Origin: a virus
DNA length: 21,364 nt
IMG/VR virus record: IMGVR_UViG_3300033182_001048
Span: 1 to 21,364 of that record
Strand: one strand, 5' to 3'
Shown here one piece after another: positions 6,273-20,367 of this stretch. A model generated the notes under the pieces. It searched no databases. It worked only from the letters and a program-made list of their open reading frames with translations, and was not told the DNA's origin. Position 1 is the stretch's first letter. Each line of letters begins with the position of its first letter. The position numbers and the translations under genes were made by a program.

Positions 6273-7118
6273 GTGGCAAAATCAGTTATTCAAGGATATA
6301 AGATTAGTGCCCTTAACAGATCTGATCTTGTAAAACCAGCTCTATCCAATCAATATCAGGTAAACATTTCTGGAATACCGAAAGGAATAACCGAACATTT
6401 AGAAAACATTTATGATGTAAAGGGTGATTGGATTAGTAGAAATGTTGGATTGTTATGTGCGGATGCAACTCTTCCGACGAGTTCTTTTGCAACATCAGAG
6501 GTAAAAGATAATTTTCAGGGAATCAATCAACAGTTTGCTCATACGAGATTGTATATTGATAGTGATTTTACTTTTTATGTTGACTACAACTACAATATGA
6601 TAAAATTCTTTGAAGGATGGATGGATTATATTTCTGGTGCAAATAGAATAAATGATATGAATATTCCAGGTTCAGACAAAGAAAGTCATAAGGGATTTTA
6701 TCGCAGATTTAATTATCCTAATGGAGAAACAGGATACAAAGTAGATACACTGTCTATTGTAAAATTTGAGAGAGATTTCAAACGTAGTGGAACTTATCTT
6801 CAGTATGATTTTATCAATGCATTTCCAAAAGGAATGACTGCAATTCCTGTTTCATACGGAGCAGCTGATTTAGTTAAAGTCACTGTTACTTTTGCTTATG
6901 ATAGGTATGTAGTGGGACGTGCATCTAAATCATCAAAAGATGTTCCAGAACCACTCAACCCAGAGACACAGGCAAAACCAGCACCAAAAAGTGATAGATT
7001 CTTGGGAGCACCCACTGCGAAAGGATTAAATTCACAGCAAACATTGAATGAGTTATATGAAGCTGGACGTTCTGGTAAAATAAAAAGTGCCTCTCAATTC
7101 ATAGGACCTCTCCAGTAG
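6273..7118 (+). CDS. gp54: gp54-like baseplate tail-tube initiator
   Basis: This 281-aa protein has the tube-protein layout shared by T4 gp19, gp48 and gp54. Elements are CADATLPTSSFATSEVKDNF, then LTFY-type strands DFTFYVDYNYNMIKFFEGWM, then YRRFNYPN, SIVKFERDF, FINAFPKGMTAIPVSYG and VTVTFAYDRYVVG. The domain ends near residue 215; the remaining 65 residues are P/K-rich and probably flexible. At 281 aa it is longer than a gp19 tube protein (about 160-205 aa) and closer to gp54 (320 aa). The start is GTG at 6273 with AAGG 8 bases upstream; the alternative of a later ATG would remove conserved sequence. It could be a gp19-type protein instead. Confidence 0.65.
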   Translation: MAKSVIQGYKISALNRSDLVKPALSNQYQVNISGIPKGITEHLENIYDVKGDWISRNVGLLCADATLPTSSFATSEVKDNFQGINQQFAHTRLYIDSDFTFYVDYNYNMIKFFEGWMDYISGANRINDMNIPGSDKESHKGFYRRFNYPNGETGYKVDTLSIVKFERDFKRSGTYLQYDFINAFPKGMTAIPVSYGAADLVKVTVTFAYDRYVVGRASKSSKDVPEPLNPETQAKPAPKSDRFLGAPTAKGLNSQQTLNELYEAGRSGKIKSASQFIGPLQ

Positions 7119-7158: not shown

Positions 7159-7881
7159 ATGCCTTTACCAAAAATCAATACTCCAACCTATGAGTTGGAA
7201 CTGCCTTCCAATGGAAAGAAAATTAAGTATCGCCCTTTCCTTGTAAGAGAAGAAAAAATCCTTATTATGGCACTGGAATCTGAAGACATGAAACAGATTA
7301 CAGATGCAATCAAAACTGTTCTTACCGATTGTGTTCTGACAAGAGGAATCAAAGTCAGTGATTTATCTACCTTTGACATTGAGTATCTGTTCCTTAATGT
7401 TAGAGCAAAGTCTGTCGGTGAAAGTGTTGAGGTTAATATTACCTGTCCTGATGATGGAGAAACACAAGTCAAAGTAGAAATTGACATTGACAGTATCAAA
7501 GTTCAAAAGAATCCTAAGCACTCAAACATTATTCAACTTGATGATAATCTCTCAGTTGAAATGAAGTATCCATCACTGAATCAGTTCGTCGAGAGCAACT
7601 TCGAAACCAATACGACTCAAAGTGATGTTGATAAGTCACTTGATGTTATTATCTCTTGTATTGGAACCGTCTTCACCGAAGAAGAGTCTTGGAGTGCTTC
7701 TGACTGCACCAAGAAGGAATTGAGAGAGTTCGTCGAACAGATGAACACCAAGCAGTTTAAGGATATTGAAGTCTTCTTTGAGACAATGCCTAAACTGACA
7801 CACACGATTGAAGTAACCAATCCAAATACAAAAGTCAAGAATAGTGTTCTCCTGGAGGGACTGGCAAGTTTTTTCAGCTAG
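7159..7881 (+). CDS. gp26: gp26, baseplate hub assembly / tail chaperone-like protein
   Basis: This 240-aa protein resembles T4-like gp26, described as a baseplate hub subunit. It begins PKINTPTYELELPSNGKK, followed by RPFLVREEKILIMAL and a helix ending TDCVLTRGI. It contains VEVNITCPDDGETQ and ends HTIEVTNPN, LLEGLASFFS. Its position between a tube-type protein and a tape-measure-like protein is that of the tail assembly chaperone in many tailed phages. Near the end, the codons AGT TTT TTC form a T TTT TTC slippery heptamer in the correct phase. A -1 shift there would continue through the gp51 frame to give a fusion of about 301 residues. Confidence 0.78.
   Translation: MPLPKINTPTYELELPSNGKKIKYRPFLVREEKILIMALESEDMKQITDAIKTVLTDCVLTRGIKVSDLSTFDIEYLFLNVRAKSVGESVEVNITCPDDGETQVKVEIDIDSIKVQKNPKHSNIIQLDDNLSVEMKYPSLNQFVESNFETNTTQSDVDKSLDVIISCIGTVFTEEESWSASDCTKKELREFVEQMNTKQFKDIEVFFETMPKLTHTIEVTNPNTKVKNSVLLEGLASFFS
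7854..7875 (+). promoter_or_regulatory. candidate -1 programmed frameshift site (gp26 into gp51)
   Basis: TTTTTTC at 7869-7875 is a canonical X XXY YYZ heptamer, read in gp26 as agT TTT TTC. GGAGG at 7854-7858 lies 10 bases upstream, similar to the stimulatory Shine-Dalgarno of dnaX. After a -1 slip the frame reads CAG CTA GCG ATG and runs without a stop into the whole gp51 frame to 8063. GGAGG is 25 bases from the gp51 ATG, too far to serve that start well. Confidence 0.6.
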
Positions 7882-7883
7882 CG

Positions 7884-8063
7884 ATGGCGCATGAAAACCT
7901 GGAGAACTACTATAAGACTAATTTTGCATTGATGCAGCATCATAAATACTCATTAACAGAGTTGGAAAATATGATACCTTGGGAAAGAGACATTTATGTA
8001 ACTCTTCTCCAACAATACATTGAGGAAGAAAACCTGAAGTATCAGCAAAAGAATGGCATTTAG
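7884..8063 (+). CDS. gp51: gp51, baseplate hub assembly catalyst-like small protein
   Basis: This 59-aa reading frame begins MAHENLENYYKTNFALM and contains YSLTELENMIPWERDIYV, then a glutamate-rich helix. The SLxELExMxPWERxxY signature is that of the short gp51-type protein found after gp26 in T4-like cyanophages, far shorter than T4's 249-aa gp51. The same pattern recalls the C-terminal part of frameshifted tail assembly chaperones. The ATG at 7884 lies 2 bases after the gp26 stop but has no properly spaced ribosome binding site. The frame is -1 relative to gp26 and open back to the slippery site. It overlaps the next gene by 11 bases. Confidence 0.65.
   Translation: MAHENLENYYKTNFALMQHHKYSLTELENMIPWERDIYVTLLQQYIEEENLKYQQKNGI
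7941..7948 (+). promoter_or_regulatory. possible late promoter inside gp51
   Basis: CATAAATA, about 105 bases before the tape-measure-like gene at 8053. It matches the late consensus except at one position but lies inside a coding frame, so it may be chance. Confidence 0.28.
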
Positions 8064-9864
8064 TAGTCAGGCATTTAGGGCACCATCGTTAACATCAAGA
8101 CCTAAATTGGGGAAGACTACTGTTTCCTCTTCAGTTTTTCGTGGAACCACTAAGGCAGTAAGTGCTTCCAAAACCATGAAAGTTCCTGCGGGAATGGGTT
8201 ATGGAAGCATTTATCGTGGTGCTAGTGTAGATCCTAAGTATCTGAAGAAAGAGGGAACGCCTCTTGAGCAGACACTGGTAGAAACAAATAATATTCTTGT
8301 AGAGATTCAAAAGCAACTCTCTGTCGATTTTGCATATAGAATCGCAAAAGAGGATGAAGAAACTAAGAAGATAAGAGCGGCGGCAGATAAGAAGAAAAGA
8401 ATAGATGCGGAGAAGGGTGCCGAGGGCGTAAAGAAAGTTGCCAGTGCGATAGGTGGAGTTGCCGATAAAGTTCTGGCACCAGCAAAGAGCATCTTTGATA
8501 AGATACTTGGATTCTTAAGTGCCGTAGTAACTGGATTTGTTGCTGAAAAAGCAATACCTTGGTTACTTAATAATAGAGATAAGATTGAAGGTACATTTAA
8601 ATTTGTACAAGATAATTGGAAATGGATTCTTGGTATAATCGGTGGTGTTCTGGTTGGTAGAGTTGTCTATAAGATTGTAAGATTATACAGAGCACTTCGT
8701 GGAGTTGCAAGATTTGCGACTGGACGTGGTGGAAAACCTTCAACTAGTGGTGGAAGAACAAGAGGTGGAATATTCCGAAATGCGGCGGGACAAAGAAGAG
8801 GTAGATTAACTATAGGTAGGGAGGTTCAATCAAGAGTTGTTCCTGGAAAATTTAATGTAGCAGGCGGTGCAGTAAGAGAAAACGTAGAAGTTATAACAAG
8901 ACAGAAAGGAATAATCAATAAGGCACTCCAAGGTGTTGAGGTTAGTGTCAAGAAGTTTTCTAGAGACATTATAAAATCACTGGGCATGGGTCCTGGTTCA
9001 AAGACACTGCAAAAATCCATACTTAAGTTTGCAAGACCTATACTGAAAAGAATACCATTTGTCGGAGCACTGCTAGATTTTGCTCTATCAGTTGCTCTCG
9101 GTGAAGATCCTGGAAGAGCAGCATTTGGTGCTATTGGTGCTGGTTTGCTTGGTGCTGTTGGAACATTCCTTGGCGGACCTCTTGGAACCTTTATTGGTGG
9201 TTTTGCTGGTGACTTTGCTGGTAGAAAACTTTATGATTTATTCTTCGGAAACAAGGGTAAAGATCCTAATGTAGAAGAAGCAAAGGGAATGAATAGTGGC
9301 GGAACAGTCACTGGAAGAAATGTTGGTGATAGAGATAGTGTCCCTGCATTATTGACTGTTGGTGAAAAAGTTGTCCCAAGAGAACAAAGTAAGGCAAGTA
9401 AGTTCGGTCCTTTTGTAGATGATATTATCAGAGACAAAGGTTCTCTTTATGGAGGAATGGTATTTGCTCTGAGAGAACAGGAAGAGAACAATAAGTTATT
9501 TAAGAAAACCAATGTTGAATTTGAAAAAACATTAAAAGAACTATTAGAGAAAAATAAACCAAAACCAAGAAACACTGGTGGCGGTGCTAATATTTCACCA
9601 CCGACAGAATCAAAAGCACCAGCAGCGGCAAATACTATCAAACCAACTGGTAGAGATACATCTTCTTCTCTGAAGAAAGAAGAAGATAGTGGACCAGAAA
9701 CTATCATGCTTCCAATGCAGAAATCTGGTTCTAATCTTCCACCTTCACAGGCAGCAATGGCACCAGCAGCAGGTGGTTCGTCTATTCCTACTTTTGATGC
9801 AGAAGATTCTGAAAACACCTATATTGAGTTCATGAAGATGCAGTTGGGCATATTTGGGGTGTGA
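8053..9864 (+). CDS. tape-measure-like virion protein
   Basis: This 603-aa protein has several tape-measure marks. An N-terminal helical region (71-130) is followed by hydrophobic segments at about 150-170 and 191-209. A long Gly/Ala-rich hydrophobic stretch lies at 334-390. Then comes GGTVTGRN..GDRDSVPALL..GEKVVPR (416-443), the GDxVPALLTPGE-type motif common in tail tape measure proteins. It starts 3 codons before the gp51 stop, as tape measures follow the tail chaperone genes. Its segment SIFDKILGFLSAVVTGFVAEKAIP (146-169) aligns with the same position of the next two proteins, so the three look like paralogs. No hydrolase domain is visible. In T4 terms it may stand in for gp29. The precise role is inferred. 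Confidence 0.6.
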   Translation: MAFSSQAFRAPSLTSRPKLGKTTVSSSVFRGTTKAVSASKTMKVPAGMGYGSIYRGASVDPKYLKKEGTPLEQTLVETNNILVEIQKQLSVDFAYRIAKEDEETKKIRAAADKKKRIDAEKGAEGVKKVASAIGGVADKVLAPAKSIFDKILGFLSAVVTGFVAEKAIPWLLNNRDKIEGTFKFVQDNWKWILGIIGGVLVGRVVYKIVRLYRALRGVARFATGRGGKPSTSGGRTRGGIFRNAAGQRRGRLTIGREVQSRVVPGKFNVAGGAVRENVEVITRQKGIINKALQGVEVSVKKFSRDIIKSLGMGPGSKTLQKSILKFARPILKRIPFVGALLDFALSVALGEDPGRAAFGAIGAGLLGAVGTFLGGPLGTFIGGFAGDFAGRKLYDLFFGNKGKDPNVEEAKGMNSGGTVTGRNVGDRDSVPALLTVGEKVVPREQSKASKFGPFVDDIIRDKGSLYGGMVFALREQEENNKLFKKTNVEFEKTLKELLEKNKPKPRNTGGGANISPPTESKAPAAANTIKPTGRDTSSSLKKEEDSGPETIMLPMQKSGSNLPPSQAAMAPAAGGSSIPTFDAEDSENTYIEFMKMQLGIFGV

Positions 9865-9867
9865 TAA

Positions 9868-11376
9868 ATGGAGAATCAGGTAGAACAACTAAAACTAAAT
9901 GTCACGAACATTAAGAGTGTTCTTATCAATTCCAATGCAAAACTCAAAAAAATCAGTTCTCAAAAAAGTAGTATTGTAAGAACAGAGGCACAGAAAGAAA
10001 AGAAAGCAGCAGCAGAAAAGAACATAGAGTCCGTTAAGATTTCTGGTTCTGGAATAATTGGTGGTGTAGTTGGCAAAATAAAAGGAATTGCCACGAGTTT
10101 CTTTGACAAGATTCTGAACTTTGCTGGATATGTATTGCTCGGTTTTATTGTCACAAAACTCCCAGAAATCATAGAGACTGGAAAGAAGGTTTATAACTTT
10201 GTAAAACCAATATGGGATGGAGTTGCGAGCACCATAAAGGTTATTATCAAGGGTGCAGGATTTATAGTTGGTGGATTCCAAAAAGCATTCAGTATCTTCA
10301 ATCCATTAAAAGAAGGCACAAAGATAGAAAGCATGAAGAAGGAAATTGACAAACTTGATGGGGAACTAGATGTTAATGATGTTCCAGAAGAACCAGTTGT
10401 AACACCTGCGGCACAGAAAGATACTTCTGGTTCAACTTCTGCTCCAGCACCAGTATCACCAGCGGCACCAGTTTCTTCTGGTCCTGTTAAACTGCCAGTG
10501 ATTCCTTTCCAAAAAAGAAACAAGGGTGGTTCAATTACAAAAACGACTCAACCAAACCAGGAACCCTGGAAGTATGATGAAAGTACCATCGTAAAGGTTA
10601 ATAGTTTAAAAAATTATCCAAAAGTTGCCGATAGATTTACGAATAATCTCTTGTATTTCAGAAAGAACATAAGTGATTTTGAGAAACTAATGAAATCTGG
10701 AGCACTTGTTCTCCGTGGACCTGGTTCTGGTGATGCTCCTCCTGGACCAGGAGCTCCTACTGGACCTACAACAACTCTTGTTCCAAAGGGTGGATTGAAA
10801 GGACTCACTGATGCAGATTGGCAGGAACTTGCATACATTGTCAGTGCAGAAGCTGGACCTGGTGATGATAAGTATGGTGTTGCTGCATGTGTATTAAACA
10901 GAGTTGCCAACCCTAGATGGCCTAATAGTATTGCGGCAGTGGGAAGACAGGCAGGACAATTTGAGGCAGTATATACTGGTAAAGCATACTATAGTCAAGC
11001 ACTTGCAGATGATTTAAAAAACAACCAAGGTAAGATTGTCGATGCACTGACTAAGTTGAACGGAAGAGATGCATTTAAGGGAACAACAATGTATCAATAC
11101 ATGGGTGATGGTGATATTAAGTTTGATAATAGAGGAAACTTCTTCCACTATGGAAATCAAGTTGGTAGATATGATCCACCACCAGCAAATCCAGATCAGA
11201 ACTGGAGAAAGTGGATAGGTGCCGAAGGTGGCATGGGCGGTAAAGATCGTTATGACTTTAGTTCAGTAAGAACTACAAGATTGGTGAGCAGAGAAGTAAA
11301 AGAACTGCAATCAATGGGAAAGAAGAAAAAAACTATTATCATTCCATATGAAGTCAAGAAGATAGTGGTGATATAA
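9868..11376 (+). CDS. tail-associated SleB-type cell wall hydrolase with tape-measure-like N-terminus
   Basis: This 502-aa protein has two parts. Residues 1-145 hold a coiled-coil-like region and a hydrophobic segment (SFFDKILNFAGYVLLGFIV), then FVKPIWDG, nearly shared with the next gene. After a P/A/S-rich linker and the sequence RNKGGSITKTTQPNQ (217-231) comes a SleB/CwlJ-type hydrolase (about 312-435). That domain has LAYIVSAEAGPGDDKYGVAACVLNRV, with E328 the likely catalytic glutamate, then QAGQFEAVYTGK and FHYGNQVG. Such domains cut the glycan strand of peptidoglycan. The C-terminus (IIIPYEVKKIVVI) again resembles its neighbour. It most likely degrades the wall locally during DNA entry from the tail. 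Start is ATG at 9868, 3 bases after the previous stop. Confidence 0.72.
   Translation: MENQVEQLKLNVTNIKSVLINSNAKLKKISSQKSSIVRTEAQKEKKAAAEKNIESVKISGSGIIGGVVGKIKGIATSFFDKILNFAGYVLLGFIVTKLPEIIETGKKVYNFVKPIWDGVASTIKVIIKGAGFIVGGFQKAFSIFNPLKEGTKIESMKKEIDKLDGELDVNDVPEEPVVTPAAQKDTSGSTSAPAPVSPAAPVSSGPVKLPVIPFQKRNKGGSITKTTQPNQEPWKYDESTIVKVNSLKNYPKVADRFTNNLLYFRKNISDFEKLMKSGALVLRGPGSGDAPPGPGAPTGPTTTLVPKGGLKGLTDADWQELAYIVSAEAGPGDDKYGVAACVLNRVANPRWPNSIAAVGRQAGQFEAVYTGKAYYSQALADDLKNNQGKIVDALTKLNGRDAFKGTTMYQYMGDGDIKFDNRGNFFHYGNQVGRYDPPPANPDQNWRKWIGAEGGMGGKDRYDFSSVRTTRLVSREVKELQSMGKKKKTIIIPYEVKKIVVI
10196..10220 (+). repeat. 25-base direct repeat, copy 1
   Basis: This 25-base stretch encoding the FVKPIWDG segment is identical to 11697-11721 in the following gene, at the corresponding place in the protein. 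With the near-identical gene starts (9886-9930 and 11396-11440) it marks a gene duplication. Confidence 0.8.
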
Positions 11377-11377
11377 T

Positions 11378-12943
11378 ATGGAAAAGCAAGCAGAACAACT
11401 AAAGTTAAATGTCACAAACATAAAGAGTGTTCTTATCAATTCTGATAAGAAACTTGGAAAGATTCGTGCAACAAACAGTGCTCTCAAGAGAAAAGAATTA
11501 CAACAAGAAAAGCAAGAAGCGGCAGAAAAGAAAATTGAGATGCCAAGAATACCTGTTGTCAGTCAGGTTTTTGGCACTATAAAAGGAGTGGCAACGAGTT
11601 TCCTTGATAAGGTATTAGGATTTCTTGGTTCTATCCTAATCGGATTTGTGGTTACAAAACTTCCAGAAATCATGGAAGGGATGAAGAAGGTTTATGACTT
11701 TGTAAAACCAATATGGGATGGTGCAATAAAAACCTTCGGTGTAATTGCTGGTGGATTCAAGTTCATCTATGATAATATTGCATCTATCTTCTCTCCTTCG
11801 GAGGCAAAGAAAGAACTTGGTGCTGCTGATGATACATTAAAAGGACTTGATAAGGAAATAACATCTGAGAATCTAGAAAGAGAATTATCTGAAACCCCTG
11901 GTGGTGATGTAGAAGATGATGTTGATATGCCCGAACCTCCAAGTGAGTCACCAACACCAGTAACTCCGACACCAACTCAAACTGGTGGTGCTCCACAGTT
12001 ACAACCTCAACCAAGAAATAAGGGTGGTGAAGTAACAAAAACCACCCAACCAAATCAACAACCTCATGTAAGAAGAGGTGTATCGCCAAATGAAATGGGC
12101 AAACTCAACCCATTCAGAATGTATCCTACCATTGCTTCCTCTCAGAGTAAGATGCTAAAAGAGCATCAAAAAAATGCCGATGCATTCCAGAAAGTTTTTA
12201 AGGATATGAAGAAAGGTTCATTCTTTGGTGGTGGAGGAAGTCCTGGTGGAGGATATCCTAGTGGAGGACAAGGACCTAAATGGACTGGTGGATTAGTAAT
12301 GGAAGCTGGTGACTTCTCTGGTAGTGTCAGTGTTACATCTGGATTTGGTATGAGAGGATTGGCAATATCTCCTGGAATGCACATGGGTGTTGATATTGGT
12401 GGTCCAGAAGGAACTCCATTAATTGCATTTACCGATGGTACAGTAAATGCAACTGGTTGGGATGGTGGATATGGAAACTATGTGGCATGGACTGATAGTT
12501 TTGGAACCGAACATTTCTATGCTCACATGAGAGGACAGGCAATGGTAAGTCCTGGACAACAAGTGAAGAAAGGAACAAAACTTGGTGAGATGGGAAACAC
12601 TGGAACATCTAGTGGTCCTCACCTTCACTGGGAAGTTGCGAATAGGGTAGGTGATACTGGTATGTCTAAGGATGCCGTATTAAGTAGATTTGATCCACTA
12701 TCAAAATATCCATCAACGGCACCTTTTGGTGGGGCAAGTATCAAAGGTGGAAGTGGTAAGGGTGGCGGACTCGGTGTTGTAAATAATGGTTCTGATTATA
12801 GAGTCGTTTATATGCCAATTGAAGTTGAAGAGATAGTAAGAAAACCTAGACCTAAATCAAATCCTGCTATTTCTATGGTAAATAGTAGTAAGCAAAAGAA
12901 GTCATTTTTTCCGAAAGTAAACCCAATCCACGAGTTAATATAA
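11378..12943 (+). CDS. tail-associated M23 peptidase with tape-measure-like N-terminus
   Basis: This 521-aa protein begins like its neighbour: the first 20 residues differ at only two positions. It shares the hydrophobic segment FLDKVLGFLGSILIGFVVTKLP and FVKPIWDG. A D/E/P-rich linker leads to RNKGGEVTKTTQPNQ (213-227). The C-terminal half is a complete M23 (LytM-type) zinc endopeptidase. MHMGVDI gives H335 and D339, HFYAHM gives H383, and GPHLHWEV gives H415 and H417, so all metal and catalytic positions are present. Such enzymes cut peptide crosslinks of peptidoglycan. With the SleB-type paralog it would attack both the glycan and the peptide parts of the wall. The ending MPIEVEEIVRK matches the neighbour's PYEVKKIVV. 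Confidence 0.78.
   Translation: MEKQAEQLKLNVTNIKSVLINSDKKLGKIRATNSALKRKELQQEKQEAAEKKIEMPRIPVVSQVFGTIKGVATSFLDKVLGFLGSILIGFVVTKLPEIMEGMKKVYDFVKPIWDGAIKTFGVIAGGFKFIYDNIASIFSPSEAKKELGAADDTLKGLDKEITSENLERELSETPGGDVEDDVDMPEPPSESPTPVTPTPTQTGGAPQLQPQPRNKGGEVTKTTQPNQQPHVRRGVSPNEMGKLNPFRMYPTIASSQSKMLKEHQKNADAFQKVFKDMKKGSFFGGGGSPGGGYPSGGQGPKWTGGLVMEAGDFSGSVSVTSGFGMRGLAISPGMHMGVDIGGPEGTPLIAFTDGTVNATGWDGGYGNYVAWTDSFGTEHFYAHMRGQAMVSPGQQVKKGTKLGEMGNTGTSSGPHLHWEVANRVGDTGMSKDAVLSRFDPLSKYPSTAPFGGASIKGGSGKGGGLGVVNNGSDYRVVYMPIEVEEIVRKPRPKSNPAISMVNSSKQKKSFFPKVNPIHELI
11697..11721 (+). repeat. 25-base direct repeat, copy 2
   Basis: Identical to 10196-10220, in the second hydrolase paralog. It is a candidate site for recombination between the two genes. 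Confidence 0.8.
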
Positions 12944-19734: not shown

Positions 19735-20367
19735 ATGAGTTGTAAAAAAGAAGGCTTGATAGATAAGCACCATATTATTCCAAGATATATGGGTGGAACA
19801 GATGAGTTTAGTAATATGGTCACTGTTTCTAGAACTTGCCATACTATGTTTCATTATTGTAATTGGAGATTGTGGAGAAACAAAGAAGATTATGTTGCTT
19901 ATAGAGGATTAGCATCTCAAATATCAAAAGAAGAAATAATAAAAGAAACTTGTAGTATTGGAGGTAAGAAATGCTATGAAAACAAAATTGGTTTATTTTC
20001 CCTTTCGATAGAAGAAAAGAAAGAAGCTTCTTCAAGAGGAGGTAAAAAGGCAGGAAAATATATGTCTCAATCTATGTGGATTAATGATGGAATACAAAAT
20101 AAAAGAATACTGAAAACCAATATATTACCTGATGGTTGGGTAAAGGGAAAAGTTAAAAAGAAAAAGAAAAAAAGAAAAAGATATGGAAGAAGTTGGGATG
20201 AATATATGGATACATTTAAAGATGAATATGAAAAAAGAATAGAATATCTTAATGAAGTTGACTTGACAAAATGGGGAATAAGAACTAAAATTGCTAATGA
20301 CTGGGGGGTTTCAAGAACCCAAGTTAATAGGTTTATTTCAAAATACTATTTGCCAAGAACTACTTGA
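19735..20367 (+). CDS. HNH homing endonuclease
   Basis: This 210-aa protein has an HNH nuclease domain at the N-terminus: DKHHIIPRYMGG with H12-H13, N27 in FSNMV and H36 in SRTCHTMFHY. Next are KEE/GGKK helices of NUMOD type (EEKKEASSRGGKKAGKYM) and the stretch MWINDGIQNKRI...LPDGWVKGK, common in phage homing endonucleases. A lysine/arginine run follows, and the C-terminus (WGVSRTQVNRFISKYY) looks like a DNA-binding helix-turn-helix. Such genes are selfish and spread by cutting homologous sites. It splits the tRNA cluster, lying between tRNA-CAT and tRNA-Leu. It is notably A-rich and K-rich compared with its neighbours. The TGA stop lies in the -35 box of the next promoter. Confidence 0.85.
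   Translation: MSCKKEGLIDKHHIIPRYMGGTDEFSNMVTVSRTCHTMFHYCNWRLWRNKEDYVAYRGLASQISKEEIIKETCSIGGKKCYENKIGLFSLSIEEKKEASSRGGKKAGKYMSQSMWINDGIQNKRILKTNILPDGWVKGKVKKKKKKRKRYGRSWDEYMDTFKDEYEKRIEYLNEVDLTKWGIRTKIANDWGVSRTQVNRFISKYYLPRTT

Follow-up and report, generated by a model that had tools for sequence, protein, structure and literature searches.

Probable -1 ribosomal frameshifting from gene 26 into gene 51 in T4-like phages of cyanobacteria and other hosts

The gp26-gp51 locus

The DNA considered here, referred to below as the window, is an uncultivated virus record of 21,364 bases (IMGVR_UViG_3300033182_001048). Its gp26-gp51 region matches 418 phage records, the majority of them from Synechococcus phages, and on this sequence evidence the virus is kin to the T4-like cyanophages. 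The two reading frames (Table 1) lie between a tail tube-type gene (6273-7118, PF23849) and a tape-measure-like ORF that has weak matches only. The gp26 polypeptide is matched by PF12322 at E=9.9e-73 and by phrog_150 at E=1.2e-78 (hmmscan), and the gp51 tail that follows is matched by phrog_634, the "baseplate hub assembly catalyst" (gp51) family, at E=1.9e-29. The tail also matches the C-terminal part (236-278) of the gp26 profile phrog_150 (E=1.2e-06), which shows that some relatives carry gp26 and the tail in one protein.

The 3' end of gene 26 reads CTG GAG GGA CTG GCA AGT TTT TTC AGC TAG. A sequence-only reading of the window had pointed to T TTT TTC in phase with gp26 at this place, and base for base this is what is found (TTT at 7870-7872, TTC at 7873-7875), as is the upstream GGAGG that it had likened to the element of dnaX. 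The same reading placed gp51 in the -1 frame, open back to the heptamer; the open stretch begins 37 nt before the stop codon of gp26 and runs on to that of gp51 at 8063. A slip of one base on the heptamer is predicted to join 239 residues (...ASFF) to 62 (QLAMAHENLEN...) in a polypeptide of 301 amino acids, with the length and the Q-L-A junction that had been anticipated.

Table 1. Features of the gp26-gp51 region of the window
Feature	Position	Strand	Basis
gp26, short form, TAC-N-like, 240 aa	7159..7881	+	PF12322 T4_baseplate / phrog_150
GGAGG, Shine-Dalgarno-like, putative stimulator	7854..7858	+	sequence; 10 nt to heptamer
Slippery heptamer T TTT TTC, in phase with gp26	7869..7875	+	sequence and junction conservation
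0-frame stop TAG, one codon past heptamer	7879..7881	+	sequence
-1-frame extension ("gp51" tail), 62 codons and stop	7875..8063	+	phrog_634 and phrog_150 matches
gp51 ORF as called by the gene finder	7884..8063	+	ORF list; ATG start probably not the real start
Candidate downstream stem, weak in the window	7883..7941	+	arms 7883-7892 / 7932-7941, 4+4 bp, two mismatches
Downstream ORF, probably tape-measure-like	8053..9864	+	weak matches: phrog_167 (tape measure, 3.8e-07) and others

TTTTTTC occurs 13 times in the window against 12.2 expected, and with the count at chance level the frequency of the heptamer alone was dropped as evidence; in-phase strings of the form X XXY YYZ number 20 in the ORFs of the window. 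What is above chance, judged from the sequences, is the combination of signals together with its conservation.

Conservation of the slippery site and the -1 frame

Viral contigs were scanned five times for homologous loci, twice on a small scale, and loci from annotated phage records were added; a scan with KVP40 gp26 as the query returned two loci only. The 263 usable junctions, with lineages clustered at 80% protein identity, span cyanophages, Pelagibacter phage HTVC008M, Sinorhizobium phiM12, Rhizobium P10VF, Ochrobactrum vB_OspM_OC, Acidovorax ACP17, Vibrio KVP40, and Aeromonas phiAS5 and avDM6. In 261 of them (65 lineages) a heptamer T TTT TT[C/T/G] lies in phase close to the stop codon of gp26 and gp51 is in the -1 frame, so that the alignment of relatives proposed in the first reading finds heptamer and phase retained together. 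The heptamer is TTTTTTC in 234 cases, TTTTTTT in 26 and TTTTTTG in one, and in all 261 the -1 frame is open for some 160-215 nt through the gp51 tail. Spacing from the heptamer to the 0-frame stop is a single codon, as in the window, in 53 of the 65 lineages.

Homopolymers are error-prone, and a break between frames at such a run might be a sequencing or assembly error in what is really one in-frame gene. Stenotrophomonas phage IME-SM1, one of two exceptions among the junctions, seems to be a case of this kind: its record (L090, ~1745-1760) has T5 at the site and a gp26 extended by a spurious tail, and its sister genomes BUCT608 and Moby have T6 there, followed by the usual stop. The one-base difference is probably a homopolymer miscall to judge from the sister sequences, and a different solution in IME-SM1, a +1 shift, was dropped as a candidate in view of them. 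For the locus in general, error is refuted by the relatives, of which more than 260, from isolates and metagenomes, have the same break, and its likelihood is next to nil. The other exception is a group of Vibrio phages, K393 and K382 (L092 ~1560-1590, L274 ~1060-1090), whose junction reads ...TCA CTT TTC AAG TAA; the canonical slippery heptamer is absent there although the -1 phase of the gp51-like tail is kept.

Conservation of the signals beyond what protein coding needs is present among the relatives, in codon bias, in folding and in the absence of start codons. The residue preceding the two Phe is Ser, Ala, Asp, Asn, His or Thr across lineages, and its codon is AGT, TCT, GCT, GAT, AAT, CAT or ACT, always with a final T. 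Given a background of 72% NNT, the naive P for this T is 5e-10, and for the first Phe codon, invariably TTT against 61% TTT and 39% TTC elsewhere in these genes, it is 1e-14; both values ignore shared ancestry, and the true ones are larger. Why seven different codons should all end in T is difficult to account for without selection at the nucleotide level, on the sequences compared.

Databases annotate gp51 as a gene of its own, and in the window its ATG lies 2 nt past the gp26 stop, an arrangement that would suit a small independent protein, with ATG 7884 used by ribosomes that have just terminated at TAG 7879-7881. Yet 38 of the 65 lineages have no ATG, GTG or TTG within the first six -1 codons, their first ATG often being codon 18-33, inside the conserved domain, and in the first -1 codons of these start-less lineages the motif R/L-[ILV]-A-L-x-H-x-[SN]-L is conserved. 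Because early codons are conserved where no start is available, translation must enter from upstream in the -1 frame; in the start-less lineages, as their sequences read, the early -1 peptide is reachable by frameshifting only. A near start is present in 27 lineages, including the window (ATG 7884), and a Shine-Dalgarno (SD) core lies 4-15 nt before it in none of the 27; a search for such a core at a usable distance from the window ATG found none, which bears out the earlier remark that this codon lacks a well-placed ribosome binding site. An independently initiated gp51 would also leave the invariant in-phase heptamer unexplained, and we regard it, though one of the two main rivals, as very improbable. 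In the public records of S-WAM1 and ACG-2014d (L083 601-1490, L084 601-1500) gp51 is unannotated though a -1-frame tail is present, and gp26 of S-WAM1 is annotated from a start later than homology supports.

Signals flanking the heptamer

The dnaX gene of E. coli combines an SD-like element about 10 nt upstream with an in-phase homopolymer heptamer and, usually, a downstream stem. The window is like dnaX in the position of the SD-like element and in the in-phase homopolymer; it differs in that the heptamer is T TTT TTC rather than A AAA AAG, lies in a phage structural gene and is followed by a weak stem. Averaged over lineages, the energy of the duplex with the anti-Shine-Dalgarno sequence is about zero in the flanking 7-mers and falls to -6.4 kcal/mol for the 7-mer whose first base is 15 nt before the heptamer, with the peak spanning 11-16 nt upstream. 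A conserved Glu-Gly explains part of this peak, going by the aligned codons. The Glu codon is, however, GAG in 35 and GAA in 14 of 49 lineages, against a background of 31% GAG (p=1.1e-8), and sequence comparison supports a dnaX-like upstream element family-wide.

Folding was scanned with 70-nt windows slid across the junction region. The mean z-score reaches -2.14 solely in the window that starts right after the heptamer, and is approximately 0 to -0.7 nearly everywhere else; against synonymous-codon shuffles the downstream z is -1.73, compared with -0.54 for a control region. Folded singly, the lineages have strong but differing downstream stems, which in most begin 4-8 nt past the heptamer and have a 3' arm of highly variable position. 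No single consensus downstream structure was found by RNAalifold, which gave 0 pairs for 34 sequences. In ten lineages, that of the window included, no clear stem is seen in this place (z for the window only -0.4); the candidate stem of the window has a constrained energy of -7.5 kcal/mol, and the homologous stem is longer in three related loci (L064, L196 and L198). Downstream hairpins that differ in this way between lineages may add something new to what is known of these signals.

A -1 product might also arise at transcription, RNA polymerase slipping on the T6 run while the ribosome keeps its frame, and the conservation of the homopolymer, together with runs of 7-8 in a few relatives, could be taken in that sense. 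The run is exactly 6 in 235 of 261 junctions, which is short for slippage by bacterial polymerase; the phase T|TTT|TTY does not vary; and the SD-like element upstream and the folding downstream are signals of the translation type. We think transcriptional slippage highly improbable.

The T4 arrangement and a chaperone role

In T4 and in Aes508, gene 26 is on the opposite strand, and gp51 is a 249-aa protein that consists of a full gp26-type domain followed, in frame, by the same tail. The matches of T4 and Aes508 gp51 to PF12322 have E-values of 3.9e-52 and 1.7e-45; T4 gp51 matches PF12322 at 1-201 and phrog_150 up to position 280. No vestige of the heptamer is visible at the fusion point in either phage. 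On these sequence comparisons T4 gp51 is the counterpart of the predicted frameshift product of the window, and in T4 the two proteins appear to come each from a gene of its own. The window shares with the T4 gp26/gp51 family both the gp26-type domain (PF12322 / phrog_150) and the gp51-type C-terminal tail joined to it, and differs in having one gp26 with a -1-frame tail where T4 has a separate, divergent gene 26 and an in-frame long gene 51. The frameshift proposed for T4-type gp26/gp51 is supported for almost all relatives checked outside the T4 core group and falls for T4 itself, with its separate, longer, in-frame gp51. The work of Vladimirov, Gautam and Davidson (2022) is said to name gp26/gp51 as the T4-like tail assembly chaperones (TACs), which fits this comparison of T4 and Aes508.

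A -1 programmed frameshift, which the sequence-only reading had called likely, is supported by the conserved site and phase, the missing start codons and the stimulators. Site, phase, conservation, start-codon absence and nucleotide-level selection are shown; from them we infer the slip and its efficiency, and gp26/gp51 is very probably one TAC gene read in two ways through a -1 ribosomal slip on T TTT TTC. Most ribosomes would stop at TAG 7879 and release the 240-aa short form. On a fraction of ribosomes both tRNAs would slip back one base simultaneously on the heptamer, stimulated by GGAGG and, in most relatives, by the hairpin, and translation would continue in the -1 frame to 8063, giving the 301-aa form with an extra C-terminal domain. 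By analogy to lambda G/GT, coating of the tape-measure protein would fall to the short form, and docking of tail components to the tail of the long form.

We also infer the chaperone role, as a short/long tail assembly chaperone pair, from gene position, the published TAC assignment for T4-like phages and analogy. In HTVC008M a "putative tail tape measure" is annotated nearby. The AlphaFold model of gp26 has a mean pLDDT of 86.8, and the HK97 TAC (2ob9) has the top Foldseek probability among the solved structures listed for it, at just 0.25 and with E=3.2, which is not significant; a gp26 profile search against solved structures gave no match.

The kind of system is known, and the window is a very well supported new case of it and not a new mechanism. 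The sequence-only reading, which knew of no report for T4-type gp26/gp51, needs correction here: the TACs of T4-like phages were identified in 2022 (Vladimirov, Gautam and Davidson, Virology 566:9-15), according to papers that cite the work (PMC10885494, PMC12846349). As cited in the first of these, some T4-like phages encode the short form in one gene and the fused long form in another, with no frameshift, from which the window differs in its predicted frameshift; as cited in the second, TAC-N genes of T4-like phages carry poly-T -1 slippery signals. A literature search for a gp26/gp51 frameshift in cyanophages turned up no further report. In PMC12846349, the TAC locus of Vandenendeviridae and Andersonviridae is described as having a conserved poly-T slippery site, GTTTTT, and a -1 frame that is always open and mis-annotated as two genes; the window is alike in all three respects, and those are other phage families. 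Lambda gpG/gpGT and other TAC frameshifts (Xu, Hendrix and Duda 2004) likewise yield a short and a long chaperone from one gene. Lambda is similar, too, in the place of its frameshift, towards the 3' end of the gene, and in the tape-measure-type gene that follows closely. The lambda heptamer is G GGA AAG, unlike that of the window.

We lean, with reserve, towards the T TTT TTY frameshift being ancestral for the long gp26-type chaperone in T4-like phages of cyanobacteria, Pelagibacter, rhizobia, Vibrio and Aeromonas, with T4 and its close kin having swapped in a duplicated, in-frame fused gp51, and with the start of the hairpin fixed 4-8 nt past the heptamer as each lineage rebuilt the 3' arm and the pairing. 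Hundreds of cyanophage genomes carry a "gp51" annotation, and what it marks is probably no baseplate protein in its own right but the C-terminal portion of a product of frameshifting; the long-enigmatic gp51 "catalyst" of T4 is probably the in-frame counterpart of that product. The role of gp26/gp51 becomes testable as that of a short/long chaperone pair. The family would be a clear example of exchange between frameshifting and gene duplication, and its signals would form a natural series in which the slippery site is fixed and the hairpins change.

Other features of the window may be mentioned. Adjoining the tape-measure-like ORF are two adjacent ORFs (9868-11376 and 11378-12943) with near-identical N-termini (MENQVEQLKLNVTNIKSVLINS... 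and MEKQAEQLKLNVTNIKSVLINS...) that end in differing cell-wall enzymes, Hydrolase_2 and peptidase M23; the pair is a tandem duplication whose copies differ in their enzyme domain. Farther along, an ORF at 19735-20367 that starts MSCKKEGLIDKHHIIPRYMGGTDEF... resembles, by eye only, an HNH-type endonuclease.
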